Below, piece after piece: positions 5,363 through 9,866 of a stretch of 64,000 nt of DNA. The stretch covers positions 1 through 64,000 of the forward strand of contig PNKV01000007.1 of the NCBI GenBank assembly GCA_013822685.1, in the 5' to 3' direction. The notes below the pieces were generated by a model. That model was not told the DNA's origin and did no database searches. It saw nothing but the letters and a program-made list of their open reading frames with translations. A program made the position numbers and the translations under genes. This DNA comes from Leptothrix sp. (in: b-proteobacteria). GTDB lineage: Bacteria > Pseudomonadota > Gammaproteobacteria > Burkholderiales > Burkholderiaceae_C. Numbering within the stretch: the first letter of the stretch is position 1; the number at the start of each line of letters is the position of its first letter.

Positions 5363-6175
5363 CTAGGTGCCTTCAGCGGGCACCAGCACGGTGAGCTTCA
5401 GATCGGGGTGCTGCGCCACCCGCAAGGTGAACTGCTCGTACTCGCGCCGGCCTGAACGGGCATGCTCAAAAGCACGCAACCCACCCTCGCGGCTCAGCAC
5501 CTTTTGAGATTGCCAGGCCGCGTCAAAGGCCCGGCTGGCCGAGCGCAACTCATCAACCAAAGCCTGGCGCACCGGGTCATCGCGCCAGGCAGCCGTGTCC
5601 GAGCGGTACTCGGCCACCAGGCGCCGTGCGCGCTCGGGCCAGTGGACGATGAAGCTGGGTGCCTGGGGATTGAGAAACACATACCGCAGCAGATTGCGCG
5701 CGCCAGCGCCCTTGAGCCAGTCCCCGAACAGCACAGCGGCCGGCCTGTTCCAGGCGATGGCATCCCAATGGCGGTCCAGGATGTAGGCCGGCGTGCGGAT
5801 CACCTTGACCAGGTCAGCCAGTTGATGCGGCGCTGCACCCGCCATGGCTTGGTGCTCTGGGTCGGCGCGCGCAGCCAGCTCGAACAGGTAGGCGCGCTCG
5901 GCCTGCGACAAGTGCAGCCCGGTGGCGATGGCACCCAGGGTCTCGGTGGACACGGCCTGCGTGCGGCCTTGCTCGATCCAGGTGTACCAGGTGGGGCTGA
6001 TGTGGCACAGCGTGGCCACCTCTTCACGGCGCAGGCCTGGTGCGCGCCGCCTGAAGCCAGGCGGCAAGCCCACGTCTTCCGGGCGCAATTGATCGCGTTT
6101 GGCGCGCAAGAACTCGCCCAGCTGGTTCTGGGGTGCGGCGGCGGTGATGGGTGCCGAAGGTGGGTGCTTTCGCAT
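5363..6175 (-). CDS. XRE-type transcriptional regulator with MmyB-like ligand-binding domain
   Basis: 270 residues. The N-terminal 25-95 is an XRE helix-turn-helix of the type found in the MmyB family (GEFLRAKRDQLRPEDVGLP, then RRAPGLRREEVATLCHISPTWYTWIEQG). Residues about 110-265 are the MmyB-like PAS-related domain, with ILDRHWDAIAWNRPAAVLFGDW and YRSDTAAWRDDPVRQALVDEL. Family members are usually ligand-responsive repressors next to an oxidoreductase or transferase gene that they control. Here the divergent gene is the methyltransferase starting at 6287, with two direct repeats between them, so it is the likely target. Confidence 0.9.
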   Translation of the reverse strand: MRKHPPSAPITAAAPQNQLGEFLRAKRDQLRPEDVGLPPGFRRRAPGLRREEVATLCHISPTWYTWIEQGRTQAVSTETLGAIATGLHLSQAERAYLFELAARADPEHQAMAGAAPHQLADLVKVIRTPAYILDRHWDAIAWNRPAAVLFGDWLKGAGARNLLRYVFLNPQAPSFIVHWPERARRLVAEYRSDTAAWRDDPVRQALVDELRSASRAFDAAWQSQKVLSREGGLRAFEHARSGRREYEQFTLRVAQHPDLKLTVLVPAEGT

Positions 6176-6200
6176 GCGTTGGGGGCCTCAGCCTGTTGAT

Positions 6201-6237
6201 TCTTGTAATAGGATAAACGCTGATCTTGTACCAGGAT
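6201..6237. promoter_or_regulatory. Direct repeats between the XRE regulator and methyltransferase genes
   Basis: Two copies of TCTTGTA-2-AGGAT occur at 6201-6214 and 6224-6237, spaced 23 bases start to start, so both lie on one face of the helix. The pair is 26 bases upstream of the XRE start and 50 upstream of the methyltransferase start. A regulator binding site is the natural reading; no experiment supports it. Confidence 0.5.
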
Positions 6238-6286
6238 CAATGCACGCTTAAGGTCAGGGCCTCAACCACCGAAAACGGAGCCCGCG

Positions 6287-7996
6287 ATGCGAGACCACCT
6301 TCAGACCAACCTTGAGCAATATGGCACCCAGGCCCAGGCCTACCTGGACAGCCCCGTGCATGCGCAAGGCCCCGACCTGGTCAAGGCACAAGCCCTGGTG
6401 GCGCGGGTTATCGCAGCAGGCGGCCAGGCGCTGGACGTGGGCTGTGGCGCCGGCCACCTCAGCTTTGCGCTGGCACCGCATGTGGCGCGCATCGTGGCGC
6501 TCGACCCATCGGGCCCCATGCTGGACACCGTCCGGCAAGCGGCTGCCGCCAAAGGCTTTCACCACATCGAAACCGCGCAGTCCACCGCAGAAAACCTGCC
6601 TTTCCCGGATGCCAGCTTTGACCTGGTGTGCTCACGCTACAGCGCCCACCACTGGACACAATTGGCACCGGCCTTGCATGAAATGCGGCGGGTGCTCAAG
6701 CCTGGCGGGCACCTTCTCATGATCGATGTGCAGGGCGAGGAAGACGCACTGGTCGACAGCCATCTGCAAGCCATCGAGTTGCTCCGAGACCGCTCGCATG
6801 TGCGCAACCGTTCTGTCTCTCAATGGCATGCCTTGCTGGCCGACGCCGGCTTTGCCGAGGTGGCCCATGACAGCTGGCCGGTGCACATCGATTTTCCATC
6901 ATGGGTGGCCCGGATGCGAACGCCCGCCACGCGCGTGGCCATGATCCGCGAAGTGCAGACCGAGGCGCCCAGGGAGGTGCAAGACGCGCTGGCCATCGAG
7001 CCCGACGGCTCGTTCAAGTTCACGACCGGGCTGTTCTGGGCGCGTTGTCACAACTGGCCCGGCTGCCACGTCTTGTCTCACCACTGCACTATCCTTGCCC
7101 AGAGCACCATGAGCACAGCCACGCCCGCCCCCGACCCCTTCACCGCTGTGCGGCCACGGCTGTTCGCCATCGCCTACCGCATGCTGGGCACGCGGTCGGA
7201 TGCGGAGGACGTGCTGCAAGACGCCTGGCTGCGCTGGCATCAGGTCGAGCAGGCGACGCTGCAATCCGCGGTGGCCTGGCTGGTGACCGTGGTGACCCGC
7301 CTGGCCATTGACCGCCTGCGATCGGCCAAGACCGAGCGCGAGGCTTATGTGGGCTGGTGGCTGCCCGAGCCCCTGGTGCAGCAGGTGGACCACCACACGC
7401 CCGAGGCCGCAGCCGAGCTGGCGGGCGAGTTGTCCGTCGCCTTGATGTGGGTGCTCGAGCGCCTCTCGCCTGAAGAACGTGCGGCCTTCCTTTTGCGGCA
7501 GGTGTTCGACCACGACTACGCAGAAGTGGCCACACTGCTGGGCAAAAGCGAGGCCGCCTGTCGACAGATCGTGCACCGCGCCTCCCAGCGCGTGCAAGAG
7601 GATCGGCCACGTTTCGAGGTGCCCAAGGATGCCCACCGCCGCGTGCTCGAGAAGTTCATGCTGGCGGCCCGCAGCGGCGAACGCGAGACCATGAAGGCCA
7701 TGCTGGCCAGCGATGTTCAACTGATCAGCGATGGGGGCGGCAAGGTGCCGTCGTTTGGCCAGGTCCTACGTGGTGGCGACCGCGTCACCAACCTGTACTG
7801 GGCCTTGTCCAGACGCCTGTTGCCTGAGCAGATCGACTACCGCCCGGCCATGCTGAATGGCGAGCCGGGGTTGCTGCGCTACATCGACGGGCAGTTGGAG
7901 TCGGCACAGGCCTTTGTCACCGATGGCGAGCAGATCGTGGCGATCTACACCGTGCGCAATCCAGACAAGCTGGCGGGCATCTCAAGCAGTATTTGA
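6287..7996 (+). CDS. In-frame methyltransferase::ECF sigma factor reading frame (569 codons)
   Basis: Residues 1 to about 255 are a complete class I SAM-dependent methyltransferase: motif I LDVGCGAGHLSFAL (Asp50-Gly56), motif II IVALDPSG, and the post-I motif FDLVCSRYSAHHW, as in YafE/UbiE-like methyltransferases. The domain should end near GLFWAR (about residue 253), but no stop follows. The frame passes through about 20 odd residues (CHNWPGCHVLSHHCTILAQST) and continues into a complete ECF41 sigma factor whose own Met is codon 275. The odd linker is encoded by an exact ECF41 promoter, so the junction looks like a promoter read as protein. GGAG precedes the ATG at 6287. Either a stop codon was lost and a fusion protein is made, or the sequence has an error at the junction. 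The separate sigma product from 7109 is listed on its own. Confidence 0.75.
   Translation: MRDHLQTNLEQYGTQAQAYLDSPVHAQGPDLVKAQALVARVIAAGGQALDVGCGAGHLSFALAPHVARIVALDPSGPMLDTVRQAAAAKGFHHIETAQSTAENLPFPDASFDLVCSRYSAHHWTQLAPALHEMRRVLKPGGHLLMIDVQGEEDALVDSHLQAIELLRDRSHVRNRSVSQWHALLADAGFAEVAHDSWPVHIDFPSWVARMRTPATRVAMIREVQTEAPREVQDALAIEPDGSFKFTTGLFWARCHNWPGCHVLSHHCTILAQSTMSTATPAPDPFTAVRPRLFAIAYRMLGTRSDAEDVLQDAWLRWHQVEQATLQSAVAWLVTVVTRLAIDRLRSAKTEREAYVGWWLPEPLVQQVDHHTPEAAAELAGELSVALMWVLERLSPEERAAFLLRQVFDHDYAEVATLLGKSEAACRQIVHRASQRVQEDRPRFEVPKDAHRRVLEKFMLAARSGERETMKAMLASDVQLISDGGGKVPSFGQVLRGGDRVTNLYWALSRRLLPEQIDYRPAMLNGEPGLLRYIDGQLESAQAFVTDGEQIVAIYTVRNPDKLAGISSSI
7046..7072 (+). promoter_or_regulatory. 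ECF41-type promoter upstream of the sigma factor gene
   Basis: TGTCACA at 7046-7052 is followed after exactly 16 bases by CGTC at 7069-7072. This is the consensus described for ECF41-dependent promoters. It lies inside the 3' part of the methyltransferase reading frame, 36 bases before the sigma factor ATG at 7109, so the sigma factor should control its own gene. An identical arrangement stands before the ahpD-like gene. Confidence 0.85.
7109..7996 (+). CDS. ECF41-family RNA polymerase sigma factor (SigJ-like) with SnoaL-like C-terminal domain
   Basis: 295 residues from the internal ATG at 7109. Region 2 (about 10-75) contains FAIAYRMLGTRSDAEDVLQDAWLR in part, and region 4 (about 105-165) contains LSPEERAAFLLRQVFD. 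The SnoaL-like domain follows from about 175. The three signatures of ECF41 sigma factors are all present: WLPEP at 84-88 in the linker, DGGGKV at 208-213 and NPDKL at 284-288. In this group the C-terminal domain, not a separate anti-sigma factor, modulates activity. Conserved neighbours are carboxymuconolactone decarboxylase/AhpD-type, oxidoreductase or epimerase genes, and an AhpD-like gene follows here. The Shine-Dalgarno sequence is weak. Confidence 0.93.
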   Translation: MSTATPAPDPFTAVRPRLFAIAYRMLGTRSDAEDVLQDAWLRWHQVEQATLQSAVAWLVTVVTRLAIDRLRSAKTEREAYVGWWLPEPLVQQVDHHTPEAAAELAGELSVALMWVLERLSPEERAAFLLRQVFDHDYAEVATLLGKSEAACRQIVHRASQRVQEDRPRFEVPKDAHRRVLEKFMLAARSGERETMKAMLASDVQLISDGGGKVPSFGQVLRGGDRVTNLYWALSRRLLPEQIDYRPAMLNGEPGLLRYIDGQLESAQAFVTDGEQIVAIYTVRNPDKLAGISSSI

Positions 7997-8003
7997 AGGC
8001 GGC

Positions 8004-8030
8004 TGTCACAAGCGCCCTGGCCGAGGCGTC
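8004..8030 (+). promoter_or_regulatory. ECF41-type promoter upstream of the ahpD-like gene
   Basis: TGTCACA at 8004-8010, then 16 bases, then CGTC at 8027-8030. It matches the site before the sigma gene in both boxes and in spacing, while the spacer sequences differ. It begins eight bases after the sigma factor stop and lies 60 bases before the start at 8091, giving a leader of about 50 bases. This identifies the ahpD-like gene as the target of the neighbouring sigma factor. Confidence 0.88.
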
Positions 8031-8090
8031 TTGATGGGCATGGAAGGCCGCAAAGGGTGGCTTTCCGCATCCCAACCCAAGGATCCCGCC

Positions 8091-8546
8091 ATGAGCACCC
8101 ACACCGCCCGCCTGCCCTACATGAAGCTCGCCCCCAAGGCCTTCAAGGCTTTGTACGACTTGTCCACCGCCGTCAAGAACAGCACCCTGGGCACACGCCT
8201 GGTTGACCTGGTCTTCTTGCACGTGTCGCAGATCAACGGCTGCGCTTATTGCATGGACATGCACTGGGCCGACCTCATCAAGCAGGATGTGGACCCTCGC
8301 CACCTCAACGCCGTGGCGGGCTGGCGTGAAGCGCCTTTTTTCAACGAACGCGAACGTGCCGCCCTGCGTTGGGCCGAGATCATCACCGCCACCCCGCACA
8401 GCGATGCCAATGACGACGAGTTTGCCGTGCTGAAGGCCCAGTTCTCAGACGTAGAAATCTCCGAACTGGGCTTTGCCATCGGGGCAATCAACGCCTGGAA
8501 CCTGCTCAATGTGAGCTTTCGCAATCCCGTGCCCGACATGGCCTGA
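8091..8546 (+). CDS. Carboxymuconolactone decarboxylase/AhpD family protein
   Basis: 151 residues with the AhpD signature NGCAYCMDMH: a CxxC redox pair with a His three residues further, preceded by LVDLVFLHVSQI. Proteins of this family act as alkylhydroperoxidases or thiol reductases; the substrate here is unknown. The ATG at 8091 is preceded by AAGGA seven bases upstream. An in-frame ATG at 8034 lies at the predicted transcription start and so is unlikely to be used. It is the only gene besides the sigma factor with an ECF41 promoter in this window. Confidence 0.92.
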   Translation: MSTHTARLPYMKLAPKAFKALYDLSTAVKNSTLGTRLVDLVFLHVSQINGCAYCMDMHWADLIKQDVDPRHLNAVAGWREAPFFNERERAALRWAEIITATPHSDANDDEFAVLKAQFSDVEISELGFAIGAINAWNLLNVSFRNPVPDMA

Positions 8547-8605
8547 GCAACGATGCCCCAGGCAGGGCTACACTGGGCCAAACAAGCTGAGGAAAGAAGG
8601 CACCC

Positions 8606-8980
8606 ATGCAAGTCCTGCTGAACACCGATACCCACGTTGATGGCCGCCACGGCATGGCCGAGTTCCTCGAAACCGAGGTGAAAGAAGCCCTGAGCCGCTT
8701 CGGTGACCACGTGACCCGCGTTGAGGCCCATGTGGCCGACGCGGTCAGCCACGCCAAGGCCCATCCGGACGACATCCACTGCACCCTGGAAGCCCGCCTG
8801 ATCGGCCTGGAGCCCGTGATCGTGAAAGACCACGCGGCTTCGGCCCACCAGGCCATTCAAGGCGCGGTGGGCAAGCTCAAGCGCGCCGTGGGCACGGCCG
8901 TTGAAAAGCACGCGCCACGGCGTGGCCCCGGCTTGTCCGACATCGCCACGTCCGACACGGCGGGCGCCGACCCGGACTGA
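8606..8980 (+). CDS. HPF/RaiA-like ribosome-associated family protein
   Basis: 124 residues resembling the N-terminal domain of hibernation-promoting factor/YfiA: a beta-alpha-beta-beta-beta-alpha layout with VKEALSRFGDHVTRVEAHVAD and the second helix ASAHQAIQGAVGKLKRAVGTAVEKH. The C-terminus is a short polar tail (DIATSDTAGADPD), and there is no long-HPF dimerisation domain. The sequence departs from classical Hpf, so a role in ribosome hibernation is plausible but not certain. AAGG lies before the ATG. It is transcribed in the same direction as the ahpD-like gene after a 59-base gap. Confidence 0.75.
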   Translation: MQVLLNTDTHVDGRHGMAEFLETEVKEALSRFGDHVTRVEAHVADAVSHAKAHPDDIHCTLEARLIGLEPVIVKDHAASAHQAIQGAVGKLKRAVGTAVEKHAPRRGPGLSDIATSDTAGADPD

Positions 8981-8987
8981 AGCCACG

Positions 8988-9866
8988 TCAAACGGCCAGG
9001 CGCCCCGCCTTGAAGTCTTCCACCGCCTGGAAGATTTCTTCGTTGCGGTTCATCACGAAGGGCCCGTACTGCGCGATGGGTTCGCCAAGCGGCTGGCCCG
9101 CGATCAGCAAGGCCCGCGTGGGCCCCTTCGCGCGCACCACCACACCATCGCGGTCCGGCCCGTTCTTCAAGATGGCCATGCGCTGGGCCGGCACCACCGT
9201 GTCCTCCACCTGCAACTCGCCCCGATAAACGTAGATGAAGGCGTTGTGCGCGGCCGCCAAAGGCTGCGCGAAGCTGGCGCCTTCAGGCAGATGCAAATCC
9301 AGGTACAGCGGCTGCGTGGCCTCGCGCTGCACGGCCCCGGCCACGCCATGGCTGGCACCCGCGATCACGCGCACGGTCACACCTTCACCCGTCGTGAACT
9401 CGGGGATGTCCGCGCTCTGGATGTCGCGGTACCAGGGCGCGCTCATCTTGTCCTTGGCAGGCAGGTTCAGCCACAGCTGGAAGCCTTCCATGCGGCCTTC
9501 GTCCTGCTCAGGCAACTCAGAGTGGATCACACCACGGCCGGCGGTCATCCATTGCACGCCGCCGTTTTGCAGCAGTCCTTCGTGGCCGGCGCTGTCGCGG
9601 TGGCGCATGCGGCCGGCGATCATGTAAGTGACCGTCTCGAAGCCACGGTGCGGGTGATTGGGGAAGCCACCGATGTAGTCGTCGGGGTTGTCGGTGCCAA
9701 AGGCATCGAGCATCAAGAAGGGATCCAGCCGCCGCTGCAAAGGCTGCGTGAGCACGCGGGTCAGCTTAACGCCATCGCCATCGGACGTGGCCTGGCCGGC
9801 GATCAGGCGCTCCACATCGCGAGGATGTGAAACGGTGGGCACGGTGGGGGTCAAAGTGGTGCTCAT
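8988..9866 (-). CDS. Pirin family protein
   Basis: 292 residues. The cupin-1 motif GGFPNHPHRGFETVTYMIAG provides two metal-binding histidines, followed by GGVQWMTAGRGVIHSELPE with a further His and Glu, as in human pirin and E. coli YhhW. The C-terminal pirin domain includes AFIYVYRGELQVEDTVVPA. YhhW-type pirins have quercetin 2,3-dioxygenase activity. It lies 50 bases downstream of azoR on the same strand, divergent from a LysR regulator: a layout suited to detoxification of quinones or aromatic compounds. Confidence 0.94.
   Translation of the reverse strand: MSTTLTPTVPTVSHPRDVERLIAGQATSDGDGVKLTRVLTQPLQRRLDPFLMLDAFGTDNPDDYIGGFPNHPHRGFETVTYMIAGRMRHRDSAGHEGLLQNGGVQWMTAGRGVIHSELPEQDEGRMEGFQLWLNLPAKDKMSAPWYRDIQSADIPEFTTGEGVTVRVIAGASHGVAGAVQREATQPLYLDLHLPEGASFAQPLAAAHNAFIYVYRGELQVEDTVVPAQRMAILKNGPDRDGVVVRAKGPTRALLIAGQPLGEPIAQYGPFVMNRNEEIFQAVEDFKAGRLAV

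Follow-up and report, generated by a model that had tools for sequence, protein, structure and literature searches.

The stretch of DNA analysed here, a window of 64,000 nt from Leptothrix sp. (GCA_013822685.1, PNKV01000007.1 positions 1-64,000, forward strand), very probably contains an ECF41 module in which control resides in a domain fused to the sigma factor, and in which two predicted promoters provide for positive autoregulation and for the expression of an AhpD-like output gene. In the proposed mechanism, the fused SnoaL/NTF2-like C-terminal domain would hold the sigma factor in check and replace a separate anti-sigma protein. A signal, perhaps a small ligand, would alter the contact between the C-terminal domain and the WLPEP linker, and the released sigma factor, together with RNA polymerase, would start transcription at both TGTCACA-N16-CGTC sites. 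The site before the sigma gene would thereby give positive autoregulation and the site before the AhpD-like gene the output. The release step is borrowed from published work on other members of ECF41 and may hold here by analogy, and the use of the two sites as promoters is predicted from their sequence.

Organization of the locus and identity of the sigma factor

Two exact matches to TGTCACA-N16-CGTC were found in the window, both on the plus strand. They are located at 7046-7072 and 8004-8030, and have identical boxes and a spacer of 16 bases, precisely as the earlier note had recorded. The number expected by chance, estimated from 100 dinucleotide shuffles of the window, was 0.03 on average, and none of the 100 shuffles contained two matches. 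Upon allowing up to two mismatches 14 matches were recovered against 19.8 expected, and therefore only the two exact sites stand out in the window. The first predicted promoter precedes the sigma factor gene (7109-7996, plus strand, 295 amino acids), with 36 bases between its CGTC and the ATG at 7109. The second precedes a gene for a carboxymuconolactone decarboxylase/AhpD-like protein (8091-8546, plus strand), with 60 bases between its CGTC and the ATG at 8091. This predicted output gene had been called AhpD-like from the sequence, and the assignment was confirmed by matches over the cut-off to PF02627 (61.6 bits, cut-off 23) and TIGR00778 (40.4 bits, cut-off 27.8) and by a CxxC motif that reads CAYC. 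Upstream of the sigma gene and in frame with it lies a SAM-dependent methyltransferase frame (6287-7108, plus strand), which was taken from the ORF listing and matched Pfam Methyltransf_11 and related models; the first site falls within the linker by which the two frames are joined. Directly downstream of the enzyme gene there is a short S30AE/ribosome-hibernation-like gene (8606-8980). Among the best 80 of 373 related loci a match to it was present in the nearest relative only, from which it differs at 12 of 372 bases, the fewest of the genes compared.

According to Pfam, the sigma protein consists of a sigma2 domain (PF04542, residues 12-74) and a sigma4 domain (PF08281, residues 115-161), with the WLPEP linker motif encoded at 7358-7372. 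The C-terminal extension carries DGGGKV (7730-7747) and NPDKL (7958-7972, all on the plus strand), which we take to be ECF41 signatures. Within an alignment of 26 sequences, made up of this sigma factor and 25 picked from the best 80 of 373 loci, W84-P88, D208-G211, V213 and N284-L288 were invariant and K212 was nearly so. The protein scored 341.0 bits with TIGR02957 (SigX4; cut-off 323.25) and 334.1 bits with PRK09636 (SigJ; cut-off 271), and from the fact that SigJ is an ECF41 member we infer that these two models stand for ECF41. The best relative of solved structure was SigJ of M. tuberculosis (5xe7), which could be aligned over residues 9-290 (E 1.4e-54). A structure predicted from the 26-sequence alignment was of moderate quality (mean pLDDT 72.8, pTM 0.48). 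Its best fold match was SigJ, followed by SigG1, and the later matches included, among other sigma factors and designed proteins, SnoaL-/NTF2-like proteins of 100-143 residues, such as an LEH-like hydrolase and the SnoaL-like CatM. We take these as matching the C-terminal domain, and on the basis of the fold matches of this moderate model the extension would have a SnoaL/NTF2-like fold; Pfam gave no match to a SnoaL domain in the sigma protein. Except for the latter, all sequence tests that were run fit membership of ECF41, and the identity proposed earlier on basis of WLPEP, DGGGKV and NPDKL agrees with the profile models, the likeness to SigJ and the alignment. The genome contained a single gene above the TIGR02957 cut-off and, as far as the accessible text of Wecke 2012 (PMC3426412) goes, there is no obvious anti-sigma gene beside ECF41 genes. 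Calling the module 'self-contained', as had been done, is thus fair.

Conservation of the two sites among relatives

Related loci were the best 80 of 373 from one scan of named genomes. Judging by their titles, the genera and families of nearly all of them presumably belong to the Burkholderiales, and one title says Gammaproteobacteria. L059, L073 and L103, with less than 300 bp of upstream sequence, were left out of the motif counts, so that 77 loci remained. The exact motif was scored as upstream when it lay no more than 250 bases ahead of the sigma gene, and as downstream when it fell in the interval that reaches from 20 bases ahead of the sigma stop to 250 bases beyond it. In this way, it was found upstream in 58 and downstream in 64 of the 77 loci (here and below, from the best 80 of 373), where 53 had it on both sides, five upstream only, 11 downstream only and eight on neither side; these counts are not independent, because the loci were picked by likeness to this sigma factor and are mutually related. 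Other spacer lengths (10-15 and 17-22 bases) occurred in at most one of the 77 loci each. Shuffling the boxes across the 77 loci 3000 times gave a mean of 0.006 loci and a maximum of three, and in 154 stretches of sigma coding sequence, searched in the same manner, nothing with fewer than two mismatches was found. A looser count with a spacer of 15-17 bases and degenerate boxes, in which L038 was misjudged over an in-frame stop, resulted in 60 loci with an upstream site, 63 with a downstream site and 54 with both. Six of the 19 loci that lacked an exact upstream site had a variant, which was a 15-base spacer between exact boxes in L078 and a single mismatch in L065, L071 (17 bases), L077, L080 and L097. 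Likewise, two of the 13 loci that lacked an exact downstream site had one with one mismatch. The distance between CGTC and the assigned sigma start, with start codons of the relatives assigned by a nearest-ATG rule, was 27-47 bases in 39 of the 58 cases, shorter in four and longer in 15.

Given that the boxes and their spacing were kept while the spacers varied across the 77 loci, the sites appear to be under selection, and on this point the earlier note, which had preferred selection over recent duplication, was right. Its choice of the AhpD-like gene as the likely output holds up against the 77 loci and the genome itself as well. In a tree built quickly from 78 sigma proteins, from which the direction of change is not readable, 10 state changes were required for the upstream site, against 17.2 on average with shuffled labels. 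Taken together, the comparison lends strong support to a predicted unit of two promoters that serve autoregulation and one output gene. The positive feedback is something that we infer from the sequences, and 19 of the 77 loci were without an exact upstream site. The second base of the spacer was an A in 77% of the 58 upstream and in 23% of the 64 downstream sites, and this difference in spacer letters perhaps sets different promoter strengths. In a Curvibacter metagenome bin, the sigma gene (L038:3995-4882) is interrupted by a single in-frame stop after sigma4 and before the C-terminal domain.

In 69 of the 80 loci (best 80 of 373) the sigma gene is followed, in the same orientation, by a relative of the carboxymuconolactone decarboxylase. 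In four loci (L087, L091, L098 and L102) the enzyme gene is located directly upstream of the sigma gene; these have neither site around the sigma gene and carry the exact motif 587-735 bases upstream, before the enzyme gene. A protein search of 42 genomes of the genus, including the genome studied, recovered nine further ECF41-like loci that were 37-95% identical. With a spacer of 15-17 bases and partly degenerate boxes allowed, two of the nine had both sites (L037 and L041), two only the downstream site and five neither, so that the upstream site was present in two of nine. Therefore, the double site belongs to close relatives of this sigma factor and not to all ECF41-like genes of the genus. 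In L041/L118, of the same genus, both sites were kept and the gene behind the second is NmrA/epimerase-like (L118 ORF 4313-5068, read by eye); epimerases are one of the three kinds of enzyme tied to ECF41 in the accessible text of PMC3426412. Since many close relatives share this layout, the finding is real but largely ordinary.

The genome scan that the earlier note had proposed resulted in three exact matches and indicated no regulon beyond the module itself. With a spacer of 15-17 bases six matches were obtained, two of which were the sites under study. Those at C26:47177, antisense in a frame read as ribosomal protein L3, and at C1:410971, antisense to the 3'-terminal part of an aroA-cmk-like frame, were rejected as regulon members, and both have identical letters in the nearest relative. 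The remaining two were C4:168504 and C15:68428. When one mismatch was allowed, 27 matches (including the three exact ones) were found against 34 for the reversed pattern, and in the nearest relative 36 against 39. As these numbers do not exceed the controls, no wider regulon is indicated, which is in agreement with the conclusion in the accessible text of PMC3426412 that the targets of an ECF41 factor are generally confined to one gene or operon. One of the one-mismatch matches, L161, lies in the gap that separates a polA-like frame from the following frame of the same orientation. It was rejected as an ECF41 site since by eye it resembles an ordinary sigma-70 promoter (TTGTCA-N17-TACACT). In 200 genomes of the family, 166 occurrences of the exact motif (97 genomes) compare with 104 of the reversed control (76 genomes); a genome match alone therefore means little. 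The aroA-like and cytidylate-kinase-like parts were, by eye, contained in one frame of 504 codons (L001:4-1518), also in the nearest relative (L143).

The joined frame and alternative readings

The methyltransferase and sigma frames form a joined frame of 569 codons (6287-7996) that contains no stop and passes through the first promoter site. In Aquabacterium sp. CECT 9606, which is the nearest relative, the methyltransferase frame closes with ...LFWAQAGV and a stop. This relative has 30 more aligned bases before the promoter, which are absent here along with the methyltransferase stop, and a further in-frame stop immediately ahead of the sigma ATG, which is absent here as well. Considering these stops, the run-together is probably a recent accident, and the joined frame would be recent and probably neutral; an error in the draft assembly or in sequencing is a possible cause of the missing stop. 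Methyltransferase relatives with E 1e-40 or better were present in six of 200 family genomes, including the genome studied, and apart from the latter their open frames measured 265-329 codons (L134 being followed to its stop). In 18 of 80 loci (best 80 of 373) the sigma match is preceded by at least 200 bases of open frame; these were dismissed as fusions because by eye most of them look like out-of-frame translations of GC-rich DNA. L057 was likewise dismissed; it has a response-regulator/HD-type start whose likeness fades before the sigma gene. The missing stop had been overlooked in the earlier note, and the 2012 description of the motif and arrangement went equally unmentioned.

One might suppose that the second site alone matters and that the sigma gene is transcribed from the promoter of the methyltransferase or from another upstream promoter, its own site having little or no use. 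We consider this unlikely, even though in the accessible text of PMC3426412 the enzyme gene was the sole detectable target in the two species studied experimentally, and loci with only a downstream site exist, both among the relatives (11/77 by exact motif, from the best 80 of 373) and in the genus (2/9). Against such a reading, the exact upstream site with its 16-base spacer is kept in 58 of the 77 loci and the genes upstream differ, the methyltransferase query having a match in L037 only (best 80 of 373). In addition, a simple scan of 6100-9050 detected no sigma-70-type promoter, which is weak evidence against it. Slightly less likely still is that the 569-codon frame is a real product, in which the methyltransferase part adds a layer of control and the internal promoter gives free sigma factor. 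The uninterrupted frame would fit this, as would the loss of both stops compared with the nearest species (one of them within the 30 missing aligned bases) and the constraint that the core of the methyltransferase still shows (dN/dS 0.21 versus the nearest relative). However, this constraint is weaker than that on seven neighbouring genes including the sigma gene (0.06-0.10), the fusion is known from one genome only, a methyltransferase lies 5' of the sigma gene in one of 80 loci (best 80 of 373), and the draft genome may contain an assembly or sequencing error.

The titles and abstract openings listed in searches of one open-access library yielded no ECF41-methyltransferase fusion. That such a fusion is expressed while the sigma-dependent promoter within the linker makes free sigma factor seems a shade more doubtful again; if true, one regulator would be made from this DNA both as a fusion and as a free, self-amplifying protein. 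Most likely, translation from the ATG at 7109 continues to yield the free sigma factor, and the internal promoter should still provide for it. By far the least probable reading, to the point of being negligible, is that the paired sites are a product of chance or that one was copied from the other. Some letters are common to both spacers in the window and the motif does arise by chance, as the reversed control in the 200 genomes indicates (104 versus 166). Nevertheless, only 0.03 matches are expected in the window, and over the 77 loci the boxes were kept and the spacers varied. The preferred reading is that of an ECF41 module with a predicted promoter for each of its two genes.

Comparison with known ECF41 systems

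The ECF41 promoter consensus TGTCACA-N16-CGTC is in print (Wecke 2012, PMC3426412). The accessible text of that paper also describes WLPEP as characteristic of ECF41, and a fused C-terminal regulatory extension of around 100 residues with three conserved motifs; in our 26 sequences DGGG, V213 and NPDKL, which belong to the signatures named in the earlier note, were invariant. In B. licheniformis and R. sphaeroides, according to the same text, sigma factors partly truncated in this C-terminal domain showed high activity. Furthermore, it lists carboxymuconolactone decarboxylases, oxidoreductases and epimerases (COE) as neighbours; the gene at 8091 (PF02627), which follows the site at 8004, conforms to this. 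The order sigma-then-enzyme was reported there for 53 loci, with a site before the sigma gene in 14, before the enzyme gene in 24, and before both in 20%. Motif, spacing, linker, extension, enzyme target and double promoters have, in that text, already been described, and the locus adds a new member to this group. It seems less expected that the double promoter would be usual among the closest relatives (53/77 by exact motif, from the best 80 of 373), where autoregulation of the sigma gene looks to be the rule. The difference in sigma-gene sites between our loci (58/77, from the best 80 of 373) and those reported (14/53) had a Fisher p of 4e-8, which is only indicative because the samples differ, ours consisting of similar proteins scored by exact motif and the other of many phyla covered by a motif search. 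Titles and abstract openings listed in searches of one open-access library did not reveal double ECF41 promoters in Burkholderiales. According to the same accessible text, mutant and overexpression strains had no reproducible phenotype and the ECF41 signal was not found. A compact unit of two promoters and one output gene would be a clean place to seek this signal, because self-amplification should enlarge the response.

Four systems can be set beside the module. Aquabacterium sp. CECT 9606 (L037; G038/L117) has the same gene order, both sites and a sigma factor that is 95% identical, and differs in the stops that part the methyltransferase from the sigma gene. SigJ of M. tuberculosis (5xe7) is akin over nearly its whole length and was the best fold match, although its identity in the fold alignment was 36-37%. 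RpoE9 of Sinorhizobium meliloti has, in the accessible part of PMC6180224, a single carboxymuconolactone decarboxylase target and an ECF41-type promoter. Finally, the ECF41 factors of Bacillus licheniformis and Rhodobacter sphaeroides, as described in the accessible text of PMC3426412, have in common with the present one the consensus, the WLPEP linker, the fused extension, a CxxC decarboxylase target and no obvious adjoining anti-sigma gene; in contrast to these, the sigma gene here is followed by the enzyme gene and each has a predicted site of its own.
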